Assembly: GCF_024198235.1 (NCBI RefSeq)
Contig: NZ_JAKCFB010000009.1
Span: 1-64,000, forward strand
Length of the DNA stretch: 64,000 nucleotides
Origin: Myxococcus dinghuensis
GTDB lineage: Bacteria; Myxococcota; Myxococcia; Myxococcales; Myxococcaceae
Direction of reading: 5' to 3'
Shown here: in pieces, positions 274-18,707 of the stretch
Layout: the number at the start of each line of letters is the position of its first letter
How positions within the stretch are numbered: position 1 is the first letter of the stretch
Program-made: the position numbers and the translations under genes
Notes under the pieces: model-generated
Told to the model about the DNA's origin: nothing
The model's database searches: none
Seen by the model: only the letters and a program-made list of their open reading frames with translations

Positions 274-3200
274 TCAGCTCACCCGGCGCCGGGGTGGCTC
301 GAGCACCAGCACCGAGGGCACCCGGGCGGGTTCGGCCAGCCGCAGCAGCGTGTAGCCGGTTCCGGCCAGACCCACCATGAAGCCCGGGGTCTCCACGCCC
401 AGCGGCACGCCGGAGAGCCAACCGTGGCGCTCGCCGCTGGCGACCAGCGTGGCGCCCCAGCGCTCCAGCTCCGGATGGGCGGCACCCCGGCCGGGGCGCT
501 CACGCGAGGCGAGCAGCAGCTCCAGGCTGCCCGCGTCGCCGTGGCAGGGCGAGTGGTCGCGGCCCAGTCCCTGGCTGAGGGTGTCGTGGAGCGCGGCGTC
601 GACCTCCTGGTGGACGAGGGCGTCGTCCAGGTGCGCCAGCGTCGCGAGCCGCGAGAGGCCGATGCCGGTGGACCCATGACACCAGGACGTCTTGAAGCGG
701 GGCTCCACGGGGCGGCCGCGCAGGTCCGGCCAGTTGCTGCGCTCCGGCACGAACAGCGAGCGCTCGTAGTCGACGGCCTTCAGGCCCGCGTCTCGGAAGC
801 GCTGCTCTCCGGTGAGCCCGTGCAGCGTCAGCAGCGCCTGGGCGATGCCCGAGGCGCCGTGGGCGAGGCCCGTCAGCGCCGCGTCCGGCTCCAGCCGCGA
901 GTACCACCCCAGGCCCCGGGCCTGCGGTCGCGCGTGGGTGAGCAGGTGCTCGCCGCACCGGCGCGCCACCGCGAGCACGGCGTCCGACGGCGCGACGTGG
1001 TGCAGCGCGGCGAGCGCGAGGATGCTCCCCGCCGCGCCGTCGAGCAGGTCGAAGTTGCCGTCCTGCGAGAGCCGCTCGTCCAGCTGCGCGGCGCAGCTCG
1101 CCGCGGTGTCCAGCAGGTCCGGCCTGCTCCACAGCGCGCCGAGCCGCGCGTAGGTGTAGACGAGGCCGCCCCAGCCGAGGAACCCGCCCACGGACGCGGG
1201 CTGGTGGCGGGGCTCGCCCTGCTTGCGCAGCATCGTCCGCACCGCGCCCCACGCCCGCTGCGTGTAGCGCGCCTCCCCCGTCAGCTCGCCCAGGTGCGCG
1301 AGGAAGAGGGCCACGCCGGGCAGTCCGCCGTAGAGGTCCAGCCCCAGGGCGCTCAGCCGCCACTGCCGGTTCAGGCCCAGGGTGAGGCCGAACCACGAAC
1401 ACTCCTCCTGGCCGCCCACGGACAGCAGCTCGAGCCGGTCGCCGACGGCGCGCGCCGCGTCGAGCAGCCGCGTCCGGTCGAGCGGCGCGGCGGCCTCCAC
1501 GGGCGCGTGGGTCGCCAGCCGCAGCGGGTCCGCCTCGATGGCCAGCGTGGCGAACGAGGCGCGGATGGCCCACACCTGCTTGTCGCGGTCCCGCTCGCTC
1601 AGCCGGCCCAACTGCTGCTCCAGCCGGTCCAGCCCGCGCTCGTCGAAGACGTCGGGAATCTCCTCGTGGGCCTCGCCCCAGACGCCGCGCCCGTCCGGGC
1701 GGGTGGTGAAGAGCGGCACGTCGCCGCGCTCCAGCGCCCGGCGCTCGGCATGGCCCACCTGCGAGAGGAAGGGGAAGCGGTCCGTGTTGAGCCCCAGCCG
1801 CTCGAAGAAGCGGTCCCGGTCCAGCGCGTTGCGCAGCAGGTCCGGGTGGTGGCTCTCCAGCAGCATCGTCTTGTAGACGAACGTGGGCCGCAGCAGGGTG
1901 CGGACCTCCACGCGCGCGAAGCGTTCCAGGAGCCCCCAGTCGCGCACCAGCGTGTCCCGGTGCGCGCGCAGGAGCTCGTAGACCTCCGTGAAGCCGCGCA
2001 CGACGCTGTCCTGGTAGCGGAACAGGTCCACGTCCATGCCCTGGAGCGTGGGGCGGTTGAGGCCGCGGCGGAACGCGCGGGGCTTGCGCGTGTAGTGCAG
2101 CTGGTCCGTCCCGGCGCCCTCCACCGCGGGGGCGTTGCGGTTGCCGGCCTGTCCCTCCGGGTTGCCCATGCCGCTGATGTCCACGCCCGCGCTGCGCGCG
2201 TCCTCCCAGGCGCGGCCGGGCAAGAGGCCCACCCGCAGCACGGAGGCGAACATCTCCTGCTCGCGCAGGAGCAGGTCGGACTGCTCCGACAGCCGCAGCG
2301 GCGGGTGCAGGAGCGACTCCAGGTCCACGAGGATGGGCTCCTCGCCCCGGGCGATGACGTTCTCGAAGTGGAAGTCCGTCCCTTCCAGCAGGTACAGCAG
2401 CGCGAGGTAGCCGCCCTGGCGCTGGTAGAAGCGCCGCACCTGCGCCTCGTCCGCGCAGGGCAGGGCCTCCACGTACTGCACCCAGCCGTGGCCCTCCCGC
2501 TCGACGTGGGGCACGCGCGGGAAGGGCGCGGAGATGCCCTTCGCGTTGACCCACTCCAGCAGCGCGTGGAAGTGGTGGTCCGTCTGGAGCGAGCGCGGCT
2601 TGTAGATGACGTGCTGGCCGGAGGCGAAGGTGGCGCGCATCACCGAGCGGCCTCCCCGGTGCACGTCCCCCATGCCCGCCTTGAGCTCCGTCAACGGCCC
2701 CGGCTCCGCGGCGCCGAGCAGCGGCCGGACCTCCGTCCAGTCCGCGCACAGCCGCTCCAGGAACTCCAGGCCCGTGTCCACCCACAGGCCCACGCGCGTC
2801 ACCAACTGGCGCGCCAGCACCGGGTACTCGCGGTAGAGCGCCGCGAGCACCTCGGGCGTGCGCAGCCGCCGCACGAAGAACTGGAAGCGCTCCGGTGGCG
2901 TGGCGCCCTCGAGGAGGCCGGACAGCCGCGCCACGTGCAGCTCGAGCACCAGCGTGCGGCTGAGCATGTCCACCATGGGCCCGGGCAGCGAGGCGAAGAG
3001 CACCGCGCCCACGGTGTCCGGGTCGAAGGGCAGCGCGCGCCCGGAGGCCTTCAGCCGGGCGATGCCCTCTTGAAGCCGGGTGTAGCCCAGGTGGAGGAAG
3101 GGCTCGGCGGCCAGCCGCAGCGCCGCGTTGGGCGTGCCCAGGAAGGACTCGGGGTAGGGCAGCGACGTGGTGGGCAGGCCCAGGGCGAGGGCCTCCTCGA

Positions 3201-3486
3201 TGTCCCGCATCCACGCGGGCGGCTGGGGCACCCGGGCGCGCAGCGCCTCGGGGGGCTCGCCCAGCAGGCGCAGCAGCTCACCCTCGTCGATGCCCGCGTC
3301 GCGCAGCCGCCAGGCGAAGCGCGCGTCGTCGGACAGGGGCGGCTTCTCCCGCCAGCGCTCGAGGCGGCGTCGGGCCAGGGCCTCGTCCACGGGGCCCGGG
3401 GTGTCCGGGGAGGCGCGCAGGGTGGCGATGCGCTCGGCGAGCGTGAGGGCCGGATACCAGGCGGGGTCGGGCTGCGACTGGGACAT
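274..3486 (-). CDS. lanM: Class II lanthipeptide synthetase LanM
   Basis: A 1070-aa bifunctional enzyme expected to dehydrate Ser/Thr of the precursor and then close thioether rings. The N-terminal half is a DUF4135 lipid-kinase-like dehydratase domain. It shows the ATP-contacting Lys (VIYKPRSLQ, near residue 290), the D-x-H-x-E-N motif (GTDFHFENV, near 374) and a following VDLE. The C-terminal LanC-like cyclase has the three zinc ligands in TSWCHGSTG (near residue 932) and SPCHGD (near 980). Length fits LanM (about 900-1100 aa). The ATG at 3486 is chosen because it begins the LanM-like MSQSQPDPAWYPA; a much longer in-frame extension would overlap the upstream gene. The upstream gene ends 14 nt before, so they are translated from one message. 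The ribosome site is weak, which suggests coupling. Confidence 0.95.
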   Translation of the reverse strand: MSQSQPDPAWYPALTLAERIATLRASPDTPGPVDEALARRRLERWREKPPLSDDARFAWRLRDAGIDEGELLRLLGEPPEALRARVPQPPAWMRDIEEALALGLPTTSLPYPESFLGTPNAALRLAAEPFLHLGYTRLQEGIARLKASGRALPFDPDTVGAVLFASLPGPMVDMLSRTLVLELHVARLSGLLEGATPPERFQFFVRRLRTPEVLAALYREYPVLARQLVTRVGLWVDTGLEFLERLCADWTEVRPLLGAAEPGPLTELKAGMGDVHRGGRSVMRATFASGQHVIYKPRSLQTDHHFHALLEWVNAKGISAPFPRVPHVEREGHGWVQYVEALPCADEAQVRRFYQRQGGYLALLYLLEGTDFHFENVIARGEEPILVDLESLLHPPLRLSEQSDLLLREQEMFASVLRVGLLPGRAWEDARSAGVDISGMGNPEGQAGNRNAPAVEGAGTDQLHYTRKPRAFRRGLNRPTLQGMDVDLFRYQDSVVRGFTEVYELLRAHRDTLVRDWGLLERFARVEVRTLLRPTFVYKTMLLESHHPDLLRNALDRDRFFERLGLNTDRFPFLSQVGHAERRALERGDVPLFTTRPDGRGVWGEAHEEIPDVFDERGLDRLEQQLGRLSERDRDKQVWAIRASFATLAIEADPLRLATHAPVEAAAPLDRTRLLDAARAVGDRLELLSVGGQEECSWFGLTLGLNRQWRLSALGLDLYGGLPGVALFLAHLGELTGEARYTQRAWGAVRTMLRKQGEPRHQPASVGGFLGWGGLVYTYARLGALWSRPDLLDTAASCAAQLDERLSQDGNFDLLDGAAGSILALAALHHVAPSDAVLAVARRCGEHLLTHARPQARGLGWYSRLEPDAALTGLAHGASGIAQALLTLHGLTGEQRFRDAGLKAVDYERSLFVPERSNWPDLRGRPVEPRFKTSWCHGSTGIGLSRLATLAHLDDALVHQEVDAALHDTLSQGLGRDHSPCHGDAGSLELLLASRERPGRGAAHPELERWGATLVASGERHGWLSGVPLGVETPGFMVGLAGTGYTLLRLAEPARVPSVLVLEPPRRRVS

Positions 3487-3500
3487 GGAGGGGGCGCGCG

Positions 3501-4574
3501 TCAGGCGGTGACCTGGCTGGAGGCGTGGCGGAACCAGAAGTGGCGGAAGGCGAGGTAGGCCTTCACCTGGAGGGGCTGGCCCGGCTGGTGGATGAGCTTG
3601 AGGTGGTTGATGCGGCGGGCGAAGCCGCTGTGCACGCCCGGAAGCTGCTCGCTGGCGCGCAGCAGGTTCTCCGGCCAGCCCCGCGTGTTGAGGGCGGTGA
3701 GCATGCCCGGCCAGGTCAGGAGCGCGTCGCGCTTGGCGGGCGTGCACAGCCCGTCCTCCACGAGCTGGTCCAGCCACCGCTTCCAGCGCGCGGGGCTGGG
3801 GTCCTTGTCCAGGATGCACTCCAGCCCGAGCTTGGGGTGCAGGCCGTCGCCCACGTCGATGTCGAGCGTGACGTCGTCCACGAAGGGCAGGGTGCGCTCC
3901 AGCACCGCGTCCAGCGGCCCGGCCTGTCCCTCCCAGCCCACGTGGCGCAGCGCCTCGCCGAGCCCCCGCAGCGGCACGCCGCGGATGCACAGCCGCAGCG
4001 CGTCCGTCTGGCGGGAGAACATCATGCCCACCTGCTCGACGCGGGGCGCGCCGGGCAGCCGCTCAAGGCAGCGCTGGAGCGCCGGGGGCAGGGCGGCGCG
4101 GTCGGGGCCCCGCAGCAGGGCGAGGCTGTCACAAACCGTGGCGGCGATGTCCGCCACGGGCTGCTCCGGCCCGAAGAAGACGCCGGGGATGGGGACGGGG
4201 CTGTGGAACTGCTCCTGGTCGAACTCCAGCCACATGTCGCGGATGCGCTGGTGCAGCGGGGAGTCGGGCTGGGCCCAGGCGCGGCAGTAGTCGCGCACGC
4301 GTTGCCAGACGGGGCTGTGGAGGAACGCGTCGGGCGGCTGGTGGTCCGGGTGGTGTCCGGCGAAGGCGGCGCGCGAGCCGTCCGCGGGGAGCAGGTTGAC
4401 GAGGAAGTCCGCCACGGGGGCGTCGTCGCCCAGGCGGCACTCGAAGCCGCTGCTCGAGCACGGGGGCAGTCGCCGCGCCAGCGCGAGGATGGGGGCCAGC
4501 GACTCGGCCGAGATGAGCGCGCTCGGCACGGAGGGCACGGCCAGCCTCAGGTAGTCTTCCATGGACCGCGACAT
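3501..4574 (-). CDS. Conserved protein of unknown function in lanthipeptide operon
   Basis: A 357-aa soluble protein sandwiched between lanT (37 nt upstream) and lanM (14 nt downstream) on the same strand. There is no signal peptide or membrane segment. I cannot assign a family by motif. Visible blocks are VTLDIDVGDGLHPKLGLE (centre), a Trp/Lys-rich RWKRWLDQLVEDGLC block, and a C-terminal RRINHLKLIHQPGQ followed by VKAYLAFRHFWF. I recall similar INH-(I/L)-K / KAYL-type endings in uncharacterised proteins beside lanthipeptide genes in other bacteria, but this is memory, not a search. Its position makes it a likely processing or maturation partner. The ATG at 4574 has GAGAGG about 8 nt upstream; MEDYLRL at 4562 is an alternative. 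Confidence 0.8.
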   Translation of the reverse strand: MSRSMEDYLRLAVPSVPSALISAESLAPILALARRLPPCSSSGFECRLGDDAPVADFLVNLLPADGSRAAFAGHHPDHQPPDAFLHSPVWQRVRDYCRAWAQPDSPLHQRIRDMWLEFDQEQFHSPVPIPGVFFGPEQPVADIAATVCDSLALLRGPDRAALPPALQRCLERLPGAPRVEQVGMMFSRQTDALRLCIRGVPLRGLGEALRHVGWEGQAGPLDAVLERTLPFVDDVTLDIDVGDGLHPKLGLECILDKDPSPARWKRWLDQLVEDGLCTPAKRDALLTWPGMLTALNTRGWPENLLRASEQLPGVHSGFARRINHLKLIHQPGQPLQVKAYLAFRHFWFRHASSQVTA

Positions 4575-4611
4575 GGGGCGCCTCTCGTTCGCTCGGGCCG
4601 GGGTGCGTGCT

Positions 4612-6912
4612 TCAGCCGATGAGTCGCTGGGGGCCGGGGGACGCGGGGGCGGTGTCGCCGGCCAGCTGCTTGTGGACCAGTTCCTTGTAGTGGCCGCCGC
4701 GGCTCATCAGCTCCGCGTGGGTGCCGCGCTCCACGAGCTTGCCGTCGACCAGGACGAGGATGAGGTCCGCGTCGCGCACGGTGCTGAGCCGGTGGGCGAT
4801 GAGGATGCGCGTGCAGGACAGGCTCCCCAGGTTCTGGTCCAACTGGCTCTCGGTGAGCACGTCCAACTGGCTCGTCGCCTCGTCGAGCAGCAGCAGCGCG
4901 GGCTTGCGCACCAGGGCGCGGGCCACCGCGAGCCGCTGGCGCTGGCCCCCCGACAGACCGGAGCCGCCCGAGCCGGAGATGAGCGTCTCGTAGCCCATGG
5001 GCATCTTCTCGATGTCGTCATGGATGACGGCCAGCTTCGCCGCCTCGGCCACCTGCTCCAGCGGGAGCGACGGGTCGCTGAAGGTGATGTTCTCCCGCAG
5101 CGAGCCGCTGAAGAGGAACGGCTCCTGGAGCACCGCGCCGAACTGGCCGCGCAAGAGGACGTAGTCCAGCGACTGCATGGGCTGGCCGTCGTAGAGGATT
5201 TCGCCGGAGGACGGCTCGTGCAGGCCGAGCAGCAGCATGGCCAGCGTCGTCTTGCCGGAGCCGCTGCGCCCCACGAGCGCCACCTTCTGGCCCGGCTCGA
5301 TGCTCAGCGAAATCCCGTCCAGCACCGTCGGCCCGTCCGCGGAGTAGCGGAAGGTGACGTCGCGCAGCTCCACGCGGCCGGACAGCGACGCGACGGGCTT
5401 CACCTCCGGCAGCGACTGCTCGGGCGAGGCCTCGAGGATGTCGATGAGGCGGTTGAGGTGCGCGCCCACCATCTGCAACTGCTGGCCGGTGGCGGTCAGC
5501 GACGCGAGCGGCTGGATGCACGAGACGGCCAGCGCGTTGAGCGCGAGCATCGTGCCCAGCGACATCTCCCCGGAGAGCACCTGCCGCGCCCCCAGCCACA
5601 GGAGCAGCAGCGGCGCCAGCGTGCGCAGCGTCAGCAGCGCCGAGTCCAGCACCGACGACAGGTGGTTCTTGCGCACCGTCACGTTCAGGTGCTTCATCAG
5701 CAGGTTGGACCAGTGGTCCAGCACCCGCTGCTCGGCGCCGGAGGCCTTGAGGGTGGCCACGCCGATGAGGGCCTCGGTGAGGTAGTTCTGCGACTCGGAC
5801 TGCGCCGTGAGGCTCTCCTGCGTGAGGCCGTGGATGCGCTGGTTGGTGCCCAGCAGCAGCGCCACCTGGATGGCGCCGATGACGATGGACACCGCGCCGA
5901 ACAGCGGCGCCTGGAACAGGAGGATGGTGAAGTAGACGAGCACCATCAACCCGTCGAGCACCACGGACAACGTGCGGCTGGTGAGCGCCTCGCGGATGGC
6001 CACGTTGCTGCCCAGGCGCGTCAGCAGGTCGCCCGTGGTGCGCTGCTGGAAGAAGCGCAGCGGCAGGGTGAGCAGGTGGCCGAACAGCCCCAGCATCATC
6101 CGCGAGTCGAGCCGGGCGTACAGGTAGATGATGACCGCCGAGCGCAGGTAGCTCGTCACGCCCTGCGCCGCCACGAGCACCAGCATGCCCAGCCCGAGGA
6201 CCGTCATCACCTCCGTGGCGCGGTAGGGGAGGATGCGGTCCACCACCACCTGCGTGAGCAGGGGCAGCGACAGGCCGATGCCCTGCATCAGCAGCGACGC
6301 GGCGAAGATCTGCGCGAGCAGCGCGCCGAAGCGCGGCATGCCCACGACGTAGGCCAGCGCGGTGCGCCAGGAGGACTCGCCGGAGCGCTGGCGCTTCTGG
6401 AAGTGGATGCTGGGCTCGAAGGAGAGCGCCAGGCCGGTGAAGCTCGCGTCGAACTCCGCCCGCGTCAGCCGCCGCCGTCCCCGGGCCGGGTCGACGATGT
6501 CCACCCGGTCCGCGGCGAAGCGCTCCACCACCACGAAGTGGTTGAACTCCCAGAAGGCGATGGCCGGCAGGGGAATCCGGTGGAACTGGGCGAGCGTGAC
6601 GGAGTAGCGCCGCGCGATGAGCCCGTGCGTGCGGGCCGCGCGGACGATGGAGAGCGCGGAGGCGCCGTCGCGGCCGGTGTCCAGGCACTCGCGGCACTCG
6701 GCCGCGGCGGTGCGCCGCCCGAAGTACGACAGCACCATGGCCAGGCACGCGCCGCCGCACTCGCGCGTGCTCAACTGCAGGATGACCGGGACGCGGCGCC
6801 ACCGGAACCACAGCACCAGCGGCCACAGCACGCGCATCACCCGGTCCAGCAGGCGCGGCGGTCTAACGGGCGCGGCGGGGGGCGGCGCGGCGGGCTCCAC
6901 GGGTTCGCTCAT
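4612..6912 (-). CDS. lanT: C39-peptidase ABC exporter (LanT)
   Basis: A 766-aa transporter that should cleave the leader after the double-glycine of the precursor and export the modified core. The N-terminal C39 peptidase has its Cys in QLSTRECGGACL (Cys52), its His in EFNHFVVVE (His125) and its Asp in VDIVDPARG (Asp141). An ABC exporter membrane domain (about residues 170-470) follows. The nucleotide-binding domain has Walker A GRSGSGKTT, signature LSGGQRQRLAVARAL, Walker B ALLLLDEAT and the H-loop IAHRLST. All key residues are present. The start ATG overlaps the stop of the HlyD-like gene by 4 nt (ATGA), showing translational coupling. Confidence 0.96.
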   Translation of the reverse strand: MSEPVEPAAPPPAAPVRPPRLLDRVMRVLWPLVLWFRWRRVPVILQLSTRECGGACLAMVLSYFGRRTAAAECRECLDTGRDGASALSIVRAARTHGLIARRYSVTLAQFHRIPLPAIAFWEFNHFVVVERFAADRVDIVDPARGRRRLTRAEFDASFTGLALSFEPSIHFQKRQRSGESSWRTALAYVVGMPRFGALLAQIFAASLLMQGIGLSLPLLTQVVVDRILPYRATEVMTVLGLGMLVLVAAQGVTSYLRSAVIIYLYARLDSRMMLGLFGHLLTLPLRFFQQRTTGDLLTRLGSNVAIREALTSRTLSVVLDGLMVLVYFTILLFQAPLFGAVSIVIGAIQVALLLGTNQRIHGLTQESLTAQSESQNYLTEALIGVATLKASGAEQRVLDHWSNLLMKHLNVTVRKNHLSSVLDSALLTLRTLAPLLLLWLGARQVLSGEMSLGTMLALNALAVSCIQPLASLTATGQQLQMVGAHLNRLIDILEASPEQSLPEVKPVASLSGRVELRDVTFRYSADGPTVLDGISLSIEPGQKVALVGRSGSGKTTLAMLLLGLHEPSSGEILYDGQPMQSLDYVLLRGQFGAVLQEPFLFSGSLRENITFSDPSLPLEQVAEAAKLAVIHDDIEKMPMGYETLISGSGGSGLSGGQRQRLAVARALVRKPALLLLDEATSQLDVLTESQLDQNLGSLSCTRILIAHRLSTVRDADLILVLVDGKLVERGTHAELMSRGGHYKELVHKQLAGDTAPASPGPQRLIG

Positions 6913-7508
6913 GGGGCGCGGCTCCGCTGGGGCGCCCCGCCGGGCACGAGCAGCTCCAGCAGCCGCTGCGAGCCCACGCGGACGCTCACCGGGAAGCGGG
7001 CGCCCAGGAGCGCCTCGGCGCTCGGCGCTCCGGGCGTGGCCTGCAGCCGCGCGACGAGCACCGCGGACGGGCCCGCCTCCGCGCGCGGCGGCAGGAGCGC
7101 GGCGCCGAAGCGCTCGCGCGCGTCCTGGGGACTGAGCACCCGGGGCTCGACGGCGAGCACGTCCGCGCGCAGGCCCGCCGCGGGAGACGAGGGCTCCACC
7201 ACCAGGGGTTGACCGGGCTGGAGCGACGCGAGCGCGTCAGGGGACAGGAACACGAGCAGCGCGGACTCGTCGGGCCCCACGCCGTCCTGCACGCGCGGTC
7301 CCTTCACGACGACGGCGACCCCGGACTCGAAGCGGGGCAGCCACGCGCTCCAGGCCAGCGCGCCACACGCGAGGAGCGTGCACAGCGTCAGCCACAGGAG
7401 CACCTGCGCGCGCGGCGCGATGAAGGCGGGGAGCACGAGCTGGGCCCGACCCTGGACGAAGCGCTCCAGGGCACCCGTGCGGAAGATGGAGGAAGGGGGA
7501 GCACTCAT
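6909..7508 (-). CDS. Small HlyD/membrane-fusion-like accessory protein
   Basis: About 199 aa from the ATG at 7508. One membrane segment lies near residues 37-57 (LLWLTLCTLLACGALAWSAW), followed by a periplasmic beta-rich region resembling the lipoyl/beta-barrel parts of membrane-fusion adaptors (FESGVAVVVKG, LQPGQPLVVEP). It lacks the long coiled-coil hairpin of full HlyD proteins, as in the short adaptors that accompany peptidase-containing lanthipeptide exporters. It is coupled by a 4-nt overlap to lanT, so it is probably the exporter's partner. An in-frame GTG at 7589 would add 27 residues but would sit 4 nt after a stable hairpin and lacks a good ribosome site; the true start is uncertain. 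Confidence 0.75.
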   Translation of the reverse strand: MSAPPSSIFRTGALERFVQGRAQLVLPAFIAPRAQVLLWLTLCTLLACGALAWSAWLPRFESGVAVVVKGPRVQDGVGPDESALLVFLSPDALASLQPGQPLVVEPSSPAAGLRADVLAVEPRVLSPQDARERFGAALLPPRAEAGPSAVLVARLQATPGAPSAEALLGARFPVSVRVGSQRLLELLVPGGAPQRSRAP

Positions 7509-7593
7509 GGAAGGCTCGTCGCCAGGGAAGCTCCCGCCAGGGGTGTGGGCTCCTGATACATCGTGAAACAGGTTTTCAGCCTGAGCCACGACA

Positions 7594-7613
7594 CCACTGC
7601 CTTTCGGCAGTGG
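7594..7613 (-). terminator. GNRA-tetraloop hairpin after lanA
   Basis: On the transcribed strand the sequence is CCACTGCC, loop GAAA, GGCAGTGG: an 8-bp perfect stem capped by a GAAA tetraloop, 17 nt past the lanA stop. No U-run follows, so it is unlikely to be a full intrinsic terminator. Such a position is typical for partial termination or a 3' stabiliser that keeps precursor mRNA in excess over the downstream export and modification genes. That role is inferred. Confidence 0.65.
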
Positions 7614-7630
7614 GCGCGGTCAGCTTGGAA

Positions 7631-7819
7631 CTAGCAGCTGCACCAGTCACAGCTGGCGGCCTGCAGGCCACCGGCCGCAACCTCGAGGACCTCGTCGGTC
7701 AGCTCGAGGATGCCGGCAGGGTTCGCGGGGATGAGGTCCCGCTCGGCCTGGGACAGCTGGTTGCGGAACTCCTCGTCCTTCCACGCGCGGATGATCTCGG
7801 ACTTGACGGTATCAGACAT
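7631..7819 (-). CDS. lanA: Class II lanthipeptide precursor (mersacidin/lichenicidin-type leader)
   Basis: A 62-aa peptide starting MSDTVKSEIIRAWKDEEFR. The leader has the features of the mersacidin/lichenicidin type-2 lantibiotic family: RAWKDxxFR near residue 12, LIPANPAG (29-36), an acidic ELTDEVLEV (39-47) and a terminal AAGG (48-51) that C39 peptidases cut after. The predicted core is LQAASCDWCSC (11 residues): Ser56, Ser61, Cys57, Cys60, Cys62, Trp59, Asp58 and no Thr. At most two dehydrations and two thioether rings are possible, leaving one Cys unpaired or free for a disulfide. The ATG at 7819 has a strong AAGGAG at good spacing, much better than longer in-frame starts. It is followed by a hairpin and then the export and modification genes. 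Confidence 0.93.
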   Translation of the reverse strand: MSDTVKSEIIRAWKDEEFRNQLSQAERDLIPANPAGILELTDEVLEVAAGGLQAASCDWCSC

Positions 7820-7862
7820 GGGCTTCTCCTTACGACGGGAGTACGGCGTGCCTGTTGAGGCA

Positions 7863-7898
7863 TTCCCGGGATTGGCCTGACGGCCTGCTTCCCGGGAA
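7863..7898. repeat. Paired TTCCCGGGA palindromes in the lanA leader
   Basis: TTCCCGGGA occurs at 7863-7871 and again at 7889-7897, centres 26 bp apart (about 2.5 helical turns). The second copy is a perfect 10-bp palindrome (TTCCCGGGAA). Both lie between the predicted lanA promoter and its ribosome site, so they could be a repressor or activator site, or fold in the leader RNA. Function is inferred. Confidence 0.5.
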
Positions 7899-7903
7899 AC
7901 GTC

Positions 7904-7933
7904 AGTATCAATTGAGTCGCGAAGTATTAGCAA
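7904..7933 (-). promoter_or_regulatory. Candidate sigma-70 promoter of lanA operon
   Basis: On the minus strand TTGCTA (7933-7928; 4 of 6 to TTGACA) is followed after 18 nt by GATACT (7909-7904; 4 of 6 to TATAAT). The surrounding stretch is clearly AT-richer than its neighbours. Transcription would start near 7897, inside the proximal TTCCCGGGA element, giving a leader of about 78 nt. This is a pattern-based call only. Confidence 0.4.
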
Positions 7934-7993
7934 GATGGAGGTATCAAACTTCAGTGGCGCTGTATGGATTCGCGGGAACCCAGCCGCTCCGCG

Positions 7994-9250
7994 TCAAGCC
8001 AGCTTTCGCAGCGGAGCCTCGTTGCGGAGGATCGGCCGGCGTTCGGTGGCGAGCCGCTCGAGGAGGGCCGCGGCGCCGCTGCTGCCCGGGGCGCGGGCGA
8101 AGGCCTGCTGGAGCCGGCGGGCGTGGTGGCGCAGGGGCTCGCTGGTGCGCAGCTCCTCGACCTTCTGGCCGAAGCTCTCGACGGTGACGTCCTCGGGGCG
8201 CAGGTGGACGGCGACGCCCGCGGCGAGGCAGCGCAAGGTGAGGTCGGATTGCTCGCCGCCGCCTCCTCCGGGGATGAGGAACAGGGGCAGGCCGTGCGTG
8301 AGCGCGCCGAGCACGGCGGCGGTCGTGCTGCTGGAGATGATGCCCTGGGCATGGGGGAGGACCGCGGCCTGGGGCACGTGTCCGCGCACGAAGAAGTTGG
8401 CGGGCACGTCGGTCACGGGGCGATCCAACCGGCCGATGGAGACGGCCACGCGGACGGGCTTCTCCCCGAGCGCGCCGCGGAGCTGGTCCCAGAAGCCGGG
8501 CGCGTTGAAGACCCGGCCGGGCTGGGCGTAGAGGATGGGCTCCCCGGAGTCTCGCGCCTCCGCCAGCCATTGCTCGAGCGCGGGGTCCGGCTCGGTGAAG
8601 TCCCAGCCGCAGTTGCCCACCAGGTGCGTCACCTCCGGCAGCACGTCCAGCGGACCCTCCAGCTCCTCGACGCTCTGGAGCAGGTGCAGGTCCCCCAGCA
8701 GGGGCGAGCGCGACGAGGGCACCTGTCGTCGGGGGAGCCAGAACATCTCGCTGCAGATGTCGTGCGACTCCATGAGTCGCGCGTACCGGTCGGAGAGGAA
8801 CGCGTCGTAGGGGAGGGTGCCGGCGAGCCGGTGGACCGGGTAGGCGCGGAACTCCGGCGGCATGCGCTCCAGGAAGGCGTCGGTGGGGAGGATGCTGGCG
8901 GCCAGGCCGATGACGGCGGTGGGGAGGTGGTGCCGGGCGCCCGCGAGCACCGCGCCGAAGGCCATGGCCTGCCCCACGAGCACGTCGGCGGGGAATTGGG
9001 TGAGGGCGTATTCGATGTGCTTCACCTGCCGGGCCTGCTCCAGCGGGTTGGCGGTGAACTCGACGATGAAGCTGGGGCCGTCCTCCTCGCCCCGGGGGAT
9101 GCGTCGCAGGCCCGCGCGGTCGAGCAGCGGCGTCATGGTGGGGCCGGTGACGAAGGCGACCTCGTGACCGCGCTCGCGAAGCTGCTGGGCGATGGAGATG
9201 GCGGGGCCGAGGGAGCCGTAGTTCGTCAGGGACGTGAAGAGAAAGCGCAT
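7994..9250 (-). CDS. GT-B glycosyltransferase, MGT/erythromycin-type
   Basis: A 418-aa GT-B fold enzyme beginning MRFLFTSLTNYGSLGPAISIAQQL, the classic N-terminal Rossmann opening of NDP-sugar transferases acting on natural products. The C-terminal donor domain reads PHAQGIISSSTTAAVLGALTHG-type, then PLFLIPGGGGGEQ. The position is right for the sugar-nucleotide site, but the usual H-x-G-G-(x)-(G/S)-T motif is altered (HAQGIISSSTT), so donor choice may be unusual. It lies 174 nt upstream of lanA on the same strand, with a separate predicted promoter for lanA between them. A role in glycosylating the lanthipeptide (the core has one Trp) is a hypothesis; glycolipid or macrolide substrates are alternatives. 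Start chosen at the ATG before the conserved strand; the ribosome site is weak. Confidence 0.85.
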   Translation of the reverse strand: MRFLFTSLTNYGSLGPAISIAQQLRERGHEVAFVTGPTMTPLLDRAGLRRIPRGEEDGPSFIVEFTANPLEQARQVKHIEYALTQFPADVLVGQAMAFGAVLAGARHHLPTAVIGLAASILPTDAFLERMPPEFRAYPVHRLAGTLPYDAFLSDRYARLMESHDICSEMFWLPRRQVPSSRSPLLGDLHLLQSVEELEGPLDVLPEVTHLVGNCGWDFTEPDPALEQWLAEARDSGEPILYAQPGRVFNAPGFWDQLRGALGEKPVRVAVSIGRLDRPVTDVPANFFVRGHVPQAAVLPHAQGIISSSTTAAVLGALTHGLPLFLIPGGGGGEQSDLTLRCLAAGVAVHLRPEDVTVESFGQKVEELRTSEPLRHHARRLQQAFARAPGSSGAAALLERLATERRPILRNEAPLRKLA

Positions 9251-9434
9251 GGCCTGGCTTTCGCGACGACGAGGGGGAGCCCCGCGCCCCGGGTGCCTCG
9301 GGACGCAGGGCTGCGACTGTAACAGCTTTCTCACGGCGGGCCCGTCACCCTGTGCGTGAGACATGCCATGCTACGGCGCGGGGCCGGGGTGGCTCGCCGC
9401 TCGCGAGCGCAGGCCTCCGTCGGGGTGCGAGAGC

Positions 9435-10799
9435 ATGGTGATGTCCGCGGCAGAGAAGGACGCGCTCGTCCAGGCGCTGGGCGCTGGGGTGCGTCAGCCC
9501 CTCCTGGTCGACGCCCAGGCGCTGGAGCCCTACAGCCACGACTTCGGCGGCACGGCGCGGCGCCTCCCCGCGGTGGTGGTGAAGGCGCGCTGCGAGGAGG
9601 ACGTCGTCCACACCTTCCGCACCGCGCGAGCGCGGGGCGTGTCGGTCAGCGTCCGGGGCTCGGGCCACTCCCTGCGCGCGCAGTCGCTCAGCGACGGAGG
9701 CATCGTCCTGGAGAACGCGCCCGGTGACCCCGACATCGTCGTGGGCGAGGACGGGCGCGTGGAGGTGTCCACGCGCACCCGCTGGGGTGAACTGGAGTCC
9801 GCGCTCAACATGGTGGGGCGCACCGCCCCGGTCCTCACGGACCACATGGCCACGTCGTTGGGGGGGACGTTGTCCGTCGCGGGCTATGGGGCGCGCTCGC
9901 TGGTGTACGGCGCGCACCTGGACCAGGTGGAGCGGCTGCGGCTCATCCTCCCGGATGGCTCCGCGCGCTGGTGTTCGCAGGCGGAGGACGGGGAGCTGTT
10001 CCGCTACGCGCTCGGTGGCTTCGGCCAGGTGGGCTTCATCGAGCGCGTCGTCATGCGCACGCTGCCCTTCCAGCCGGTGGTGCGCGTGCAGCGCAACGGC
10101 TTCGAGTCGTTCGGCGCGCTGGTGGAGTCGCTGTCCTGGACGCAGGGCTGGGACGGGCCCTCGCCGGACCACTTCTTCGGACAGCAGAAGCGCGGCGAGG
10201 TGATGAGCGTCTTCGGCGCGAGCCACCCGGACGAGGCGTCGGCGTCCACCACGCGCATCCCCGGTCCGCTGGAGTCGCTCTCGCATCAGCGCACGCACAT
10301 GCTCGTGCGGCCCGGCTACTTCATCCAGGCGCGCACCCGCGCCGACGCGCCCATGGAGAAGCTGCCCCGCCAGTTCTGGAGCGACTACTGCTTCGACTAC
10401 GAGGGGCTGCGCGCCTTCGTGAAGGCCCTGGAGGAGGGACCGCGCGAGCGCTACTGGGACGACAACTGCCTGGTGCGCATCCTGGCGCTGAAGCGGGGCT
10501 CGGTGCGCTGGCCCTTCGACATCCGCTCCCTGTCGAGCCCCGCGTCCCGGCTCTATGGCATCGGCATCTACTACCGCATCGAGCCCGGGGAGGATGAGAA
10601 GGCCGAGCGGGCCCGGCAGGCCCACGCGGACTTCCTGGCCCGCTGCCTGGAGCTGGGCGGCCGGCCGTACCTCTACGGCTGCAACGCGATGACGCCGGAG
10701 CTGATGGAGCGCTTCTACGGGGACGCCTACGCGCGGCTGCGCGCGCTGCGCCGGGAGCTGGACCCGGACGGGCTGTTCAATCCGGGCGGGCTCCCCTGA
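9435..10799 (+). CDS. FAD-linked oxidase (cytokinin-dehydrogenase / BBE-like)
   Basis: About 454 aa. It has an N-terminal PCMH FAD-binding domain: LPAVVVKARCEEDVV, then RGSGHSLRAQSL, where the His of GHS corresponds to the covalent FAD attachment residue in cytokinin dehydrogenases. SLGGTLSVAGYGARSLVYGA follows the typical second FAD-contact block. A cytokinin-oxidase-like C-terminal domain ends DPDGLFNPGG. There is no Cys in the 6-S-cysteinyl position of bicovalent BBEs that I can recognise. It oxidises an unknown amine or alcohol. It is divergent from the glycosyltransferase (184 bp between) and convergent with the cupin gene, so it could belong to the lanthipeptide locus, but nothing in the sequence proves this. 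Start chosen at the ATG-GTG-ATG cluster. Confidence 0.85.
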   Translation: MVMSAAEKDALVQALGAGVRQPLLVDAQALEPYSHDFGGTARRLPAVVVKARCEEDVVHTFRTARARGVSVSVRGSGHSLRAQSLSDGGIVLENAPGDPDIVVGEDGRVEVSTRTRWGELESALNMVGRTAPVLTDHMATSLGGTLSVAGYGARSLVYGAHLDQVERLRLILPDGSARWCSQAEDGELFRYALGGFGQVGFIERVVMRTLPFQPVVRVQRNGFESFGALVESLSWTQGWDGPSPDHFFGQQKRGEVMSVFGASHPDEASASTTRIPGPLESLSHQRTHMLVRPGYFIQARTRADAPMEKLPRQFWSDYCFDYEGLRAFVKALEEGPRERYWDDNCLVRILALKRGSVRWPFDIRSLSSPASRLYGIGIYYRIEPGEDEKAERARQAHADFLARCLELGGRPYLYGCNAMTPELMERFYGDAYARLRALRRELDPDGLFNPGGLP

Positions 10800-10808
10800 G
10801 GTCGCGCG

Positions 10809-12086
10809 TCACGCGGCGGGTTCGGGGCGAAGCAGGCCCCGGGCCACGAGCACCTTGAGGACCTCGTGGGCCTGGTCCAGGCGCAGGCCCTCGGCCCAGG
10901 CCTCCACGTCGCCCACGCGGAAGCGCTCGCGCCCCGCGATGGCGCGCACCAGGGGCAGCACCTCGCCGGACAGGCCCACCTCCGTGTTGGCGCCGTAGAG
11001 GTACACGGAGGACGCCCCGTTGGGACCTCCAGGGCGGACCGCGTAGACGAGCGGGTAGGGCTCCGTGCGCGCCAGCACCGTGTCGGGCTGGAGGGTCACG
11101 GTGGGGGCCGGCTGTGACGGGGCGAAGAGGGCGCCGGTGGTGCTGGCGCGGCGCCACAGCCGCTCCAGCTCCGTGTCGTCCGAGGAGAGCTTGCCGAGCA
11201 GGTCGCGCAGCTCCGTCAGCCGCGACGCGATGAAGCCGCGCACCTCCGGGGGCATGGTGCCCGTCGTGTCCGGCGTGGTGAGGGAGGCCGGCACGAGGGC
11301 GCGCCAGTCGACGCGCGACTGGAGCAGCCGCTCCAGCTCCGGGCCGAGCACGCCGAAGAAGCCCACCGTCTCGCAGGCCATGTTCATGGCGAGGGAGGAC
11401 TCGTCGCCCGCCTTCGCGTTGTGCCAGCAACCCGGGGGCAGGTAGAGCAGGTCGCCGGGCTCCAGGAGGACCTCCTCGAACTGGCGCTCGTCCGGGGTGG
11501 CGACGTCCTTGATGGGCTTGTTGTCGCTCTGCCGCACGCGGCCGTCCTGCTCGACGATGGCGTTGCGCAGCGGGTAGGGGGTGGCGGGCAGGCGCGAGTA
11601 GCGCCACAGCTTGCGGCCGGCAATCTGGATGACCATCGCGTGCCGCGCGTCGTAGTGCGTGTCCAGGCCCTCGCCCGGCGGCGACAGGTAGCAGTTGAAG
11701 CGCACGGGCGTCGCCAGGTTGAGCTGCCGGCGGATGTGGGCCGCGAAGCGCGCCAGGCCCGCGTCGCCCGCGCCGATGTCGTTGACGCACACGGTGGTGC
11801 GGGAGGTGAGCGCCTCGCGCACCTGGTCGGGGGAGAGGGTGATGGCGGCGTATTCGTCGTGGCGGTTGCGCCAGAAGGCGTGGATGCCGAAGGAGGCGGG
11901 CGCGCGCTTGTCGAAGCCGGCGTGGAGCAGGGCCTGGTCGAAGCGCTGGCGGTCGAACAGCGCCTTGAACTTCTCCGGCGTCCCCCGGACGAAGAGCGCC
12001 TGCTTCTCCCAGTACTCGGAGAGGAACGCCTCCGGCGTGACAGGGTGCAGCAGTTCCGCGAGCTCACGGCCGTTTCCACCGGACAT
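10809..12086 (-). CDS. JmjC/cupin-type Fe(II) oxygenase (uL16 hydroxylase-like family)
   Basis: 425 aa. A cupin core resembles the RoxA/MINA53/NO66 ribosomal oxygenases. The iron-binding H-x-D is seen in DTHYDARHAMVIQIAGRK (near residue 150) and the distal His in LPPGCWHNAKAG (near 225). A helical and winged-helix-like C-terminus (LRLDQAHEVLKVLVARGLL) also fits that family. Known members hydroxylate His or Arg on ribosomal proteins. Because it is next to the lanthipeptide locus it could instead act on the peptide (one Asp in the core), which is speculation. The ATG at 12086 begins MSGGNGRELAELL; a longer in-frame extension is rejected since it would run over the OsmC gene. Confidence 0.82.
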   Translation of the reverse strand: MSGGNGRELAELLHPVTPEAFLSEYWEKQALFVRGTPEKFKALFDRQRFDQALLHAGFDKRAPASFGIHAFWRNRHDEYAAITLSPDQVREALTSRTTVCVNDIGAGDAGLARFAAHIRRQLNLATPVRFNCYLSPPGEGLDTHYDARHAMVIQIAGRKLWRYSRLPATPYPLRNAIVEQDGRVRQSDNKPIKDVATPDERQFEEVLLEPGDLLYLPPGCWHNAKAGDESSLAMNMACETVGFFGVLGPELERLLQSRVDWRALVPASLTTPDTTGTMPPEVRGFIASRLTELRDLLGKLSSDDTELERLWRRASTTGALFAPSQPAPTVTLQPDTVLARTEPYPLVYAVRPGGPNGASSVYLYGANTEVGLSGEVLPLVRAIAGRERFRVGDVEAWAEGLRLDQAHEVLKVLVARGLLRPEPAA

Positions 12087-12184
12087 CCGAAGACCCCTTG
12101 TGCGTGATGTGCGAGCGAGGGGGCTCACGGTAGTCCCGAGCCGTGGCACGCGTCGAGCCAGGGGCGCCACCGACCTCCGTGGAC

Positions 12185-12607
12185 TCAGGGCGTGGGAGGT
12201 GGGGCGAACGTCGTCTCGATGCGCAGCGCCCGGGAGAGGGTGAGCGTCACCGGCGTCTTCGCCGCGATTTCGAGCAGGCGCGCCTTCTGCTCCTCCGTCA
12301 CGGCGGGCCCCACCGACAACGTCCGCTCCACGCGCTCGACGTCCCCCTCCCGGAACAGCTTGAGCTTCACGGTGAAGGGGCTCAGGTCCCACTGCTTGCG
12401 CGCCGCGTACATCTTCAGGGTGATGGCCGTGCACGCGCCCAGCGAGCCCATGAGCAGTTGGTAGGGCGCGGGGCCCTGGTCCGCGCCACCGAGCGCCGCC
12501 GGCTCGTCCGCCATGAAGTGGTGCTTGCCGGTGCGAATCGACTGCGTGTAGCCGTCCTGGCTCTCGACGACGGCGGCCGCCAGCAACGTGGAGTCATGCG
12601 TGGTCAT
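12185..12607 (-). CDS. OsmC family protein
   Basis: 140 aa. It shows the OsmC/Ohr-fold signature: an N-terminal beta sheet with a GKHHFMADEP turn, then PAPYQLLMGSLGACTAITLKMYA, where the Cys of GACT is the conserved active-site Cys on the central helix. LEIAAKTPVTLTLSR ends with the usual 'P-V-x-x-x-L' but lacks the second catalytic Cys of peroxide-reducing OsmC/Ohr (CPVS replaced by TPVT). This suggests a YhfA-like, non-peroxidase member. The start is the ATG at 12607, beginning MTTHDSTLLAA. It is divergent from chrA with 80 bp between. Confidence 0.88.
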   Translation of the reverse strand: MTTHDSTLLAAAVVESQDGYTQSIRTGKHHFMADEPAALGGADQGPAPYQLLMGSLGACTAITLKMYAARKQWDLSPFTVKLKLFREGDVERVERTLSVGPAVTEEQKARLLEIAAKTPVTLTLSRALRIETTFAPPPTP

Positions 12608-12687
12608 GCAGCCATGAATCCAGGGCGCCTCCCGCATGGCAAGGTCCAAGCACCCGCCTCCCTCTTCCGAGGTAGTCTCCCCGCGCG

Positions 12688-13887
12688 ATGTCACTCCAGG
12701 AGTCCGGGACTTCCGAGCCCGTTGCACCACCGTCACCGAGGGGCCAGGCGCTCGGGGAGCTGGCGCTCCTGTTCCTGCGCCTGGGCACCACCGCCTTCGG
12801 AGGACCGGCCGCGCACGTCGCGCTGATGGAGGACGAGGTGGTGCGCCGCCGGCGCTGGCTCACGCACGAGGAGTTCGTGGACCTGCTCGGCGCGGCCAAC
12901 CTCATCCCCGGGCCCAACTCCACGGAGCTGGCCATCCACATCGGTCACCGGCGCGCGGGGTGGCCGGGGCTCCTCGTCGCGGGCACGTGCTTCATCCTGC
13001 CCGCCTTCCTCATCGTCCTCGGCATCGCCTGGGGCTACGCGCGCTTCGGTGCGCTGCCGGACGTGAGCGCGCTGCTCCATGGGGTGAAGGCCGTCATCAT
13101 CGCCGTCGTCCTCCAGGCGCTCTGGGGGCTGACGCGCACGGTGGTGCGCACGCGGCCGGCCGCCGTCGTGGGGCTCGCCGTGGTCGCCGCCGCCTTCCTC
13201 GGCGTGAACGAGCTGTGGCTGCTCCTCGCCTCCGGGCTCGCCGTCCTCGCGTGGCGCGCGGCGGGACGGGCGCGGACCGGCGTGGACGCGAGCGGGCGCT
13301 CGGTCGTGTCTCCCTGGCCGATGATGGTCGGCATGGGGGCCGGCGCGGTGGTGCCCTTCTCCCAGCAGGGGCTGTTCGTCTTCTTCCTGAAGGTGGGCTC
13401 CGTGCTCTACGGCAGCGGCTATGTGCTGCTGGCCTTCCTGCGCGCGGACCTCGTGGAGCGCTTCGGCTGGCTGACCGAAGCCCAGTTGCTGGACGCGGTG
13501 GCGGTGGGGCAGGTGACGCCGGGGCCGGTGTTCACCACGGCGACGTTCATCGGCTACGTGCTCGGTGGTCCCACGGGCGCGGTGGTCGCGACGGTGGGCA
13601 TCTTCCTGCCCGCCTTCTTCTTCGTCGCCGTGAGCGGGCCGCTCGTCCCGCGCCTGCGTCGCTCGTGGGCGGCCGGTGCGTTCCTGGATGGCGTCAACGT
13701 GGCGTCCCTGGCGCTGATGGCCGTGGTGACGTGGCAGTTGGGCCGCGCGGCGCTGGTGGACGTGTGGACGGTGGGACTCGCGGCCCTGTCGGCCGTCCTG
13801 CTCATCCGCTACCGCGTCAACTCCGCCTGGCTGGTGCTGGGGGGCGCGGCGGTGGGGTGGCTCCTGGAGGGGCGCTGGGCCGCGTGA
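12688..13887 (+). CDS. chrA: Chromate transporter (CHR family, two-domain)
   Basis: 399 aa with two homologous halves, each with about five to six membrane segments, as in long-chain CHR proteins. The first half carries FLRLGTTAFGGPAAHVALMEDEVV and LLGAANLIPGPNSTELAIHIG; the second repeats FLKVGSVLYGSGYVLLAFLRADLVE and VGQVTPGPVFTTATFIGYVL. The GGP, PGP and TPGP motifs are the CHR signature. Family members export chromate using the proton gradient; other anions are possible. The start ATG follows GAGG at wide spacing. It stands alone as a transcription unit, divergent from osmC. Confidence 0.93.
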   Translation: MSLQESGTSEPVAPPSPRGQALGELALLFLRLGTTAFGGPAAHVALMEDEVVRRRRWLTHEEFVDLLGAANLIPGPNSTELAIHIGHRRAGWPGLLVAGTCFILPAFLIVLGIAWGYARFGALPDVSALLHGVKAVIIAVVLQALWGLTRTVVRTRPAAVVGLAVVAAAFLGVNELWLLLASGLAVLAWRAAGRARTGVDASGRSVVSPWPMMVGMGAGAVVPFSQQGLFVFFLKVGSVLYGSGYVLLAFLRADLVERFGWLTEAQLLDAVAVGQVTPGPVFTTATFIGYVLGGPTGAVVATVGIFLPAFFFVAVSGPLVPRLRRSWAAGAFLDGVNVASLALMAVVTWQLGRAALVDVWTVGLAALSAVLLIRYRVNSAWLVLGGAAVGWLLEGRWAA

Positions 13888-13907
13888 GGCTGCTGCCGTG
13901 GCGTCTC

Positions 13908-14828
13908 CTATGGCGCCTGTGCGGCGGACTCGAAGTAGTGGCGCTCGGCGAGGTCTGCGAGCAGTCCGGGATGTGTCGGTCGCCAGTTCAGGAGGCCTCG
14001 TGTGAGCTCGCTGGACGTGGGGTTGTCGAGCTGGGCGAAGGTGGCGAGGAAGCCGAGGTGGTTGCTCGCGTCCTCGGCGGAGACGCTCCTCGAGGGGAGT
14101 CCGAGTCCACGACCGATGGCCTCGGCGATGTCGCGGAAGGGGACGCCGACCTCGGCGGTTCCGTGGAGGCGTGAGCCCGCGGGGGCCGCCTCCAGCGCCA
14201 GACGATAGAGCCTCGCGGCGTCGAGGGTGTGCACCGCCGGCCAGCGGTTGGTGCCCTCTCCGACGTAGGCGGCGAAGCCGTTCTTCCGTGCCATCGCGAT
14301 GAGTGAGGGCACGAAGCCTTGATGGTCGAGCGCGCTGTGGACGGTGGGCGCGAGGCGGATGACCGAGGAGCGGACGCCGCGCTTCCCGAGCGCAATCACG
14401 GTGTTCTCCGCGTCGATGCGCGCGCCGCTCGCGAGCACGTCGTTCTCGGTGCCGGCGCGGCCTCGCACGGCCTGGGCGAGCATGAGGGTGCCTCCGGTGC
14501 CCACGAATGGCTTGCCGGAGCCCTCGAGCGCGGCGGACATCGCCTCGATGGCGCGCAGGTCGGCTGCCGCGGCCCCCACGTAGTCGCCGGTGAAGGCGAC
14601 GTCGTGCTTGAACGCGAGGTGGATGACACCCTCCGCCGCGGCGGTGGCCTTCCGCAGGCTGTCGAGGTCGTCGAGGCTGCCTCGGTGCACGGCGGCGCCA
14701 GCGGACTTCAGCGTGGCGGCCGAGGCGTCGGACCGGGCGAGACCGACGACCTCGTGCCGGGCGGAGAGCAGCTCACGCACGACCGCGGAGCCGATGTGCC
14801 CGGAGGCACCCGTGACAAAGACGCGCAT
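13908..14828 (-). CDS. Atypical short-chain dehydrogenase / NAD(P)-dependent epimerase
   Basis: 306 aa. The N-terminus MRVFVTGASGHIGSAVVREL carries the GxxGxxG Rossmann motif of extended or atypical SDRs, followed by VVGLARSD and a GVIHLAF segment (the D/N-x-x-H-x-A strand). The catalytic YxxxK is not evident (the region reads GARIDAENTVIALGKRG), so it may bind NAD(P) without classical SDR chemistry, as in NmrA- or SDR5-type proteins. The remaining sequence (RWPAVHTLDAARLYRLALE) is typical of 'SDR family oxidoreductase' proteins that bacteria often carry next to regulators. Substrate unknown. Convergent with chrA, 20 bp apart. Confidence 0.85.
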   Translation of the reverse strand: MRVFVTGASGHIGSAVVRELLSARHEVVGLARSDASAATLKSAGAAVHRGSLDDLDSLRKATAAAEGVIHLAFKHDVAFTGDYVGAAAADLRAIEAMSAALEGSGKPFVGTGGTLMLAQAVRGRAGTENDVLASGARIDAENTVIALGKRGVRSSVIRLAPTVHSALDHQGFVPSLIAMARKNGFAAYVGEGTNRWPAVHTLDAARLYRLALEAAPAGSRLHGTAEVGVPFRDIAEAIGRGLGLPSRSVSAEDASNHLGFLATFAQLDNPTSSELTRGLLNWRPTHPGLLADLAERHYFESAAQAP

Positions 14829-15141
14829 GCGAACCTCCGACGTCGGAGCCGGACCTGGCTCCTACCATGCGGGTGACCGACCTCGGGACGAGGCATGCTC
14901 CGGGACGTCGGGAACCGGACGCGCGTGTCCTCGTTGGAACTCGGCGCGGACGCCTAAAACCTATTGGGTGCAACTTTGGTTCGTTTGCTGCGACTCTGCA
15001 GGTCGGGACGTCGCGGAGTGTGAGGCCTCTTCTGTCAACGAAGTACCGGTTCACCATGGTGAACTGGGGTCGCGGCTGACCATACATTGGTGCTGAGTGA
15101 CAGATACCTCTGCCTCTTTCCTGGACGACGAGCGAGTACTT
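14829..15141. other. 313-bp intergenic region with a 16-bp perfect palindrome
   Basis: No gene is supported here. The stretch is AT-richer than its surroundings. It holds GTTCACCATGGTGAAC (15049-15064), a perfect palindrome that extends to 22 nt (15046-15067) with one G-T mismatch. It could be an operator or a cruciform/hairpin near the end of the low-GC gene that follows. The upstream part probably holds the promoter of the SDR gene; I see no convincing hexamers. Confidence 0.45.
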
Positions 15142-18704: not shown

Positions 18705-18707
18705 CGC

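Follow-up and report, generated by a model that had tools for sequence, protein, structure and literature searches.

We analysed a lanthipeptide locus in the first 64,000 nucleotides of a contig of the predatory soil bacterium Myxococcus dinghuensis (NZ_JAKCFB010000009.1; 294,623 bases, from a genome of 10.4 Mb); this whole stretch is referred to below as the window. The central element of the locus is lanA, a gene for a precursor with a very short core. It is accompanied by genes for a class II lanthionine synthetase (LanM), an exporter (LanT), a putative export adaptor and, between lanM and lanT, a protein encoded at 3501-4574. The gene order, namely ATP-binding cassette (ABC) ATPase, lanM, 3501-4574, lanT, adaptor, lanA, glycosyltransferase, flavin adenine dinucleotide (FAD) oxidase and JmjC protein, is identical in the loci of three related genomes (G002, G013 and G004). 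In G110, which belongs to another genus, the same order runs from the JmjC gene to lanT, where the contig ends. All the window genes described here lie on the reverse strand except that for the FAD oxidase, which lies on the forward strand.

The lanA gene (7631-7819) encodes 62 residues followed by a stop codon: a leader of 51 residues, MSDTVKSEIIRAWKDEEFRNQLSQAERDLIPANPAGILELTDEVLEVAAGG (7667-7819), and the core LQAASCDWCSC (7634-7666), whose start we place after the double glycine that ends the leader. As the original prediction had stated, the leader is of the mersacidin/lichenicidin type: it matches TIGR03898 with 67.1 bits (cut-off 23.5) over residues 8-51, and the match stops at the two glycines, which are kept in all five orthologues. 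Ser and Cys residues follow this leader, as in a class II precursor, and lanA is the sole TIGR03898 match in the window genome among the candidates scored. Full-length copies at 89-90% identity were found in G002, G004 and G013, three of the 40 other genomes in our set of 41 relatives, which includes the window genome; the core in G110 is VIAASCDWCSC. Compared with the window core, each of these four orthologues has two synonymous codon changes and one or two replacements, all in the first two residues, and AASCDWCSC is invariant in the five genomes. That lanA is a chance open reading frame (ORF) was rejected because of its conservation in five genomes.

How unusual the core is was judged from a TIGR03898 survey of 195 Myxococcota genomes, scoring at most 34 candidates per genome and projecting the leader end with a profile built on six leaders. 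This gave 118 rows (at least one weak site, in L210, gave none) and, after removal of three mis-projected rows, 115 distinct precursors, with cores of 11-52 residues (median 29) and none shorter than that of the window. Projected cores of at most 12 residues number 5 of the 115; four are the window core and its close variants, and the fifth, in G123, is also 11 residues long if cleavage follows both glycines. The 11-residue core is extreme for the mersacidin-type leader family in Myxococcota, and in that sense the earlier description of it as unusually short holds. It is not unprecedented in class II, for a passage of PMC11791876 gives the core of the Moorena precursor MppE as seven residues. 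The masses originally calculated by hand, 1185.43 and 1149.40 Da, were right: we obtain 1185.425 Da for the unmodified core and 1149.404 Da after two dehydrations. Further precursor loci are recorded here. In G095 (L115, 12186-12383), the same SCDWCSC core is extended by eight residues (VAAEEAAE), and two glycosyltransferase matches lie nearby. Other Myxococcus mersacidin-type clusters (L034-L038) have as many as three precursors in tandem, and a CTPCPPxxC block is common to their cores.

The enzymes expected of a class II locus are present. LanM (274-3486) scores 893 bits against TIGR03897, and both its dehydratase domain (DUF4135, PF13575) and its cyclase domain (LANC_like, PF05147) are over cut-off; it aligns with LicM2 (6st5) at E 1.1e-114 over residues 169-1069 of the stretch supplied. 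A ProcM-like CCG zinc site was considered for the window LanM and rejected, since its sequence reads WCHG and CHG. LanT (4612-6912) is a C39 peptidase-ABC exporter with Peptidase_C39, ABC_membrane and ABC_tran all over cut-off. We consider it well supported that the locus encodes a class II lanthipeptide. The original claim of a complete and intact export and modification set stands for lanM, the C39 transporter and their neighbours, which are open ORFs. The gene for the adaptor, a candidate HlyD-type protein (6909-7589, with a conserved Met near 7508), is syntenic in 3/3 orthologous loci; its product has no Pfam or NCBIfam match, and its structural model, with a predicted local distance difference test score (pLDDT) of 58.7, is too poor for naming or searching. 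Two gene boundaries were corrected, to likely ATG starts at 3486 for lanM and at the upstream end of 7994-9250 for the glycosyltransferase.

The original prediction overlooked the most informative gene, 3501-4574. Its product has no Pfam or NCBIfam family match. Across nine members of its family Pfam returned two families, each in one member (E 0.066 and 0.092), which we took as chance; a sequence-profile search of solved structures with the family gave five matches, the best at E 0.3, and PADLOC found nothing for this protein or the adaptor. An AlphaFold2 (AF2) model built from 22 sequences (the window protein and its counterparts at other loci) has a mean pLDDT of 92.0 and a predicted template modelling score (pTM) of 0.91, with repeating strand pairs and helices. 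Used as a Foldseek query, it gave 23 matches at E<=0.001, all 23 of them prenyltransferases, headed by the Streptomyces CL190 enzyme and including many Trp or indole enzymes; KgpF, the cyanobactin Trp prenyltransferase, stands lower in the list (E=0.11). With VIA-align, the model reached Z 17.0 to the indole prenyltransferase MpnD (root-mean-square deviation 4.2, 295 aligned) and Z 16.8 to CymD (3.9, 284); the best 50 rows are all prenyltransferases, mainly Trp or indole enzymes, with FunA (histidine) and NphB-type enzymes also among them. The barrel, built of alternating strand pairs and helices, matches solved members along almost its full length, and these structure entries belong to the alpha-beta-beta-alpha (ABBA) class. 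An alternative identification, as a LanM fragment, was rejected because the fold is that of a prenyltransferase. From fold and homology together, we regard it as close to certain that 3501-4574 encodes an ABBA-fold aromatic prenyltransferase.

Because a fold alone does not prove function, a characterised homologue was sought. MppC, whose fold is termed alpha-beta-beta-alpha, geranylates Trp82 of the LanM-cyclised MppE core in a leader-dependent manner and rejects free L-Trp (PMC12715784). DNA coding for G-ACWRWSG occurs in one of 386 cyanobacterial genomes (locus L231), where an 84-residue precursor ending GGACWRWSG fits the published 77+7 layout of MppE. The LanM of this locus is 30% identical to that of the window; two ORFs with like beginnings lie between precursor and LanM, one ORF looks flavin-halogenase-like by eye, and the published Mpp cluster has two arginase genes. 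The 397-residue protein encoded after the precursor is 35% identical to the 3501-4574 product (127/362 columns, residues 10-351, 198 bits, E=1e-64) and scores 352 bits against the profile of the prenyltransferase family. From the published core and leader length we presume that it is MppC or its equivalent. The window enzyme is homologous to this presumed MppC and is likewise encoded beside LanM and a Trp-bearing core, and we consider it likely to modify the core Trp. The candidate site is the sole Trp codon of the core (7643-7645), placed by analogy with MppC (PMC12715784).

Enzyme and core were compared across genomes. Precursors were called linked on the basis of an enzyme search scoring at most 10 candidates per genome, and the core motif was written as SC(.W.|..W)SG?C. 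Among the 115 mersacidin-type precursors of Myxococcota, the motif is carried by each of the nine that are linked to the prenyltransferase, compared with 2/106 others (Fisher p 8e-12, uncorrected for kinship, with counts spanning related genomes and the motif defined after the cores were seen); for any Trp, the figures are 9/9 and 14/106 (p 1e-7, likewise uncorrected). Linked cores read S-C-x3-S-(G)-C with Trp inside, and Trp lies in the motif of all eleven motif-bearing precursors. The two unlinked motif cores are those of G122 and of G110, whose contig stops in lanT before the prenyltransferase position. Among nine further loci of the phylum that were scanned (L126-L134), three (L126, in the window genome, L128 and L134) have the core SCTWGANCGK. 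Trp-bearing precursors were also found outside the phylum, in Hyella (three), Scytonematopsis, Anabaena, Nodularia, the L231 genome and one acidobacterium; those of Anabaena and Nodularia lie 4-5 kb from the enzyme and have no LanM match. A metagenome-assembled genome (MAG) of the Synergistaceae (L152) has a possible precursor ending MPGW. In six LanM-free myxobacterial loci (L118-L120, L122, L123 and L125), the prenyltransferase gene adjoins a precursor ending TQAW(E/Q). The full ending there is ELxDEALDDLISG(G/E)AQELSxTQAW(E/Q), and these loci also have an uncharacterised ORF of 222-228 residues, some of them with a further ORF judged cyclase-like by eye; they are possibly a separate class of prenylated peptide.

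The motif cores also suggest a possible ring pattern. S1, C2, S6, the Trp and a Cys at position 7 or 8 are present in every one of the eleven motif precursors. Two Ser allow two thioethers at most, so the original arithmetic, which left one Cys over, was correct; the spare Cys is not what sets this core apart, however, because the third Cys is absent from two motif precursors and shifted in others. If the four kept residues are the ring partners and adjacent pairs are excluded, the pairing would be C2-S6 and S1-C7, a nested bicycle enclosing the Trp. The C2-S6 pair has the Cys-first i/i+4 spacing shown for the Cys79-Ser83 pair of MppE (PMC11791876). In the G132 cores, SCVCWSGC, this spacing is kept and the Trp is shifted by one position towards the C-terminus, matching Trp82 of MppE.

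Beyond the precursor lie three putative tailoring genes, of which the FAD oxidase and JmjC genes, past the end of the cluster as first drawn, had gone unmentioned. The glycosyltransferase (7994-9250) is macrolide (MGT)-like, with 99.9 bits against TIGR01426, below the cut-off of 260, and YjiC and CalG4 as best solved relatives. The FAD oxidase (9435-10799, its ORF opening at 9363) matches FAD_binding_4 and resembles cytokinin dehydrogenases (best solved relative E 6.7e-22). The JmjC/cupin protein (10809-12086), a putative hydroxylase related to YxbC and NO66, scores 72.6 bits against JmjC_2, and its HxD...H motif aligns with that of YxbC. At E<=1e-30, the cut-off used for presence, each of the three occurs in exactly the 4/41 genomes that have the precursor, and all three are again beside the precursor in G110; G004 has a second glycosyltransferase, 46% identical, elsewhere on the same contig. 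The earlier hint of added sugar or oxygen gains support from this co-inheritance. We also compared eight myxobacterial loci with both the prenyltransferase and a complete LanM (the window, L031-L033, L115, L116, L121 and L124, with L117 left out as too short): the FAD oxidase was found in 8/8, the glycosyltransferase in 6/8 and the JmjC protein in 4/8. Outside the orthologues, the oxidases of these loci are 27-47% identical to that of the window, over partial length in two. None of eight other Myxococcus mersacidin-type loci (L034-L041) has a glycosyltransferase, FAD oxidase, JmjC or prenyltransferase match. At the opposite edge of the locus, a start of an ABC transporter ATPase gene (3-248), truncated by the contig end, is syntenic in L031-L033, with an ORF of 801 residues next in L031; it is a possible export or immunity partner.

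The 14 best solved relatives of the oxidase are cytokinin dehydrogenases, and their GHS and TD motifs, which we take to hold the flavin-linking His and the catalytic Asp, align in its N-terminal FAD-binding part (residues 16-234 of the stretch supplied). Because cytokinin dehydrogenases act on prenylated adenine, the resemblance suggests that this enzyme might work on the prenylated side chain. A broader proposal can be built on this: that there are myxobacterial nested-bicyclic, Trp-prenylated mini-lanthipeptides in which the cytokinin-dehydrogenase-like oxidase oxidises or oxidatively cyclises the prenyl-Trp, followed in the window lineage by glycosylation and JmjC hydroxylation. We put this forward tentatively, as a scheme that is less likely than not to be right.

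Taken together, these data lead us to propose, with a probability of roughly 0.8, that the product of the locus is a miniature class II lanthipeptide whose sole Trp carries a prenyl group, and that this peptide is further tailored, cut at Gly-Gly and exported. The sequence itself shows the mersacidin-type leader, the GG and a core with the constant part S-C-x-W-x-S-C (SCDWCSC). LanM would dehydrate the two Ser and close the thioether rings, and the ABBA enzyme encoded at 3501-4574 would attach an isoprenoid to the Trp, probably guided by the leader as MppC is. The oxidase, glycosyltransferase and JmjC protein would then tailor the prenyl-Trp or the ring, and LanT would cleave after GG and export the product.

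Several observations weigh against this proposal or parts of it. The motif was written post hoc, and related genomes make its counts non-independent. In G122 (L207, NASCGWSSC), LanM and a glycosyltransferase are present and neither a prenyltransferase nor an FAD-oxidase match lies within ~9 kb, so the motif can exist without the prenyltransferase; this locus is possibly a true counter-example, or a decayed or trans-acting cluster. Simple scans for precursors found none that was recognisable in six loci of the same phylum (L127 and L129-L133) and none that was convincing, only doubtful ORFs or nothing, in L140-L143, L145, L146, L148, L149, L151 and L155. In a Bacteroidales MAG (L153, 9346-10697), a Trp-less precursor with the core YNGGGGMPSPDSVGINAPGFKC lies directly before a 24%-identical enzyme relative, and in a Bacillota MAG (L150) a Trp-less precursor lies ~5 kb from a distant relative; from L153, the enzyme family may have other targets. 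Other ring partners could come from non-conserved residues: C5 in the window, a Ser preceding the motif in G108 and G123, and S5 in G122 and G131. The oxidase also resembles EncM and other oxidases, and among the seven loci outside Myxococcota that encode both the enzyme and LanM (L137, L139, L145, L146, L149, L156 and L231) it was matched only in L149. Because it is mostly absent there, the pairing characterises myxobacteria and is not general to the enzyme family. Two of these loci have further features of their own. The G122 locus (L207/L218, G122:C66 near 531600) holds the motif precursor NASCGWSSCNRTN, with no LanT match nearby. L149 (5516-12141), on a contig of Pedobacter alluvionis (Bacteroidota), has adjacent genes for LanM, a JmjC protein, a relative of the prenyltransferase and an FAD oxidase.

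The prenyltransferase fold does not reveal its substrate, and the ABBA enzyme might prenylate another residue, such as the leftover Cys thiol or the N-terminus, or a small molecule, leaving the peptide a plain small lanthipeptide. The one Cys of the window core outside any thioether and the Trp-less precursors near distant relatives (L150, L153) would fit this idea. Yet the SCGWDSC and SCGWSSC cores have just two Cys and keep the Trp, the LanM-free loci with the same enzyme keep it in a Cys-less core, and the characterised homologue acts on Trp and not on the free amino acid (PMC12715784); we think this alternative improbable. A better case, though still an unlikely one in our view, can be made for a product of fewer than 11 residues, in which LanT would cut at GG and a second protease would trim the peptide to AASCDWCSC or SCDWCSC. 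The core begins with LQ, VV, VI or LA and is constant thereafter, and G095 and others have tails past the last Cys that may be kept or trimmed; on the other hand, no protease family but the C39 domain was matched among the window proteins searched, and a variable N-terminus may be simply unconstrained.

Two further alternatives concern the remaining parts of the scheme. The glycosyltransferase, FAD oxidase and JmjC genes could be chance neighbours acting elsewhere, as the incomplete presence of the first and last among the eight myxobacterial loci and the rarity of the oxidase outside the phylum might suggest. Their confinement to the precursor-bearing genomes, their recurrence in G110 and the unbroken presence of the oxidase in the eight loci argue against this, and we consider it rather unlikely. 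Finally, CDWCSC taken by itself resembles a set of thiol metal ligands, and the product could be no lanthipeptide at all but a CxxCxC peptide that binds metal, in which case LanM would be idle. LanM adjoins the precursor in the window and in three orthologous loci, and in the wider family both Ser are kept and the middle Cys is not; because this Cys is unconserved we rejected the metal-binding peptide, which we hold to be highly improbable. We retain the prenylated lanthipeptide as the preferred reading.

The window genome has a second prenyltransferase cluster (L126, G000:C34:92000-111500, at 8741-19480), with two relatives of 3501-4574, a PhyH protein, two JmjC proteins, a LanM-like stretch, a protein with a weak SQHop_cyclase_N match under the cut-off and a short precursor whose last residues are AEGSCTWGANCGK. 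This cluster is possibly an isoprenoid-cyclised counterpart of the one studied here.

Prenylated lanthipeptides were discovered only recently. If the proposal is right, they occur not only in cyanobacteria, with leaders of the Nif11 type, but also in Myxococcota, with leaders of the mersacidin type; a prenyltransferase family with no Pfam or NCBIfam match gains a function, and the seven-residue motif offers a means of studying how LanM and a prenyltransferase share a tiny substrate. The flavin-oxidase pairing in Myxococcota hints at tailoring chemistry of a new kind. The natural lanthipeptide prenylation that we found in the literature, in a search with most subscription papers outside it, concerns cyanobacteria, and consists of the MppC study (PMC12715784), whose supplement shows further predicted clusters and may list relatives, and one entry in the table of a review (PMC11048544).

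Among the closest known systems is Mpp of Moorena producens (MppE, MppM and MppC): it shares a class II LanM, a very short Trp-bearing core after GG, a homologous ABBA prenyltransferase, and Cys and Ser at i/i+4 with a Trp between them. It differs in its leader, which is Nif11-type with 77 residues rather than mersacidin-type with 51, and in its core, ACWRWSG, with one Cys and one Ser, compared with SCDWCSC. Mpp has a halogenase, a terpene synthase and arginases, as given in PMC11791876 and PMC12715784, where the window has a C39 LanT, a cytokinin-dehydrogenase-like oxidase, a glycosyltransferase and a JmjC protein. Ribosomal peptides with polycyclic isoprenoids (Hubrich 2024, Chem, as cited in PMC12715784) are there associated with lanthipeptide prenylation after macrocyclisation. 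The prenylation proposed for the window, and the L126 cluster with its weak squalene-hopene-cyclase match, resemble what that citation conveys of them; the window cluster differs in having no cyclase-like match among its searched proteins. With the mersacidin and lichenicidin lantibiotics the locus shares the leader family TIGR03898, the LanM family (LicM2) and a C39 exporter, but its core has 11 residues, where the tabulated Myxococcota precursors have a median of 29, and it adds the prenyltransferase and the tailoring genes. Lastly, the indole and Trp ABBA prenyltransferases MpnD, CymD, PriB and IptA, which act on small molecules, share the fold of the 3501-4574 enzyme at 6-15% identity in the listed rows, whereas the gene for the window enzyme belongs to a peptide cluster and its product is a homologue of the presumed MppC.

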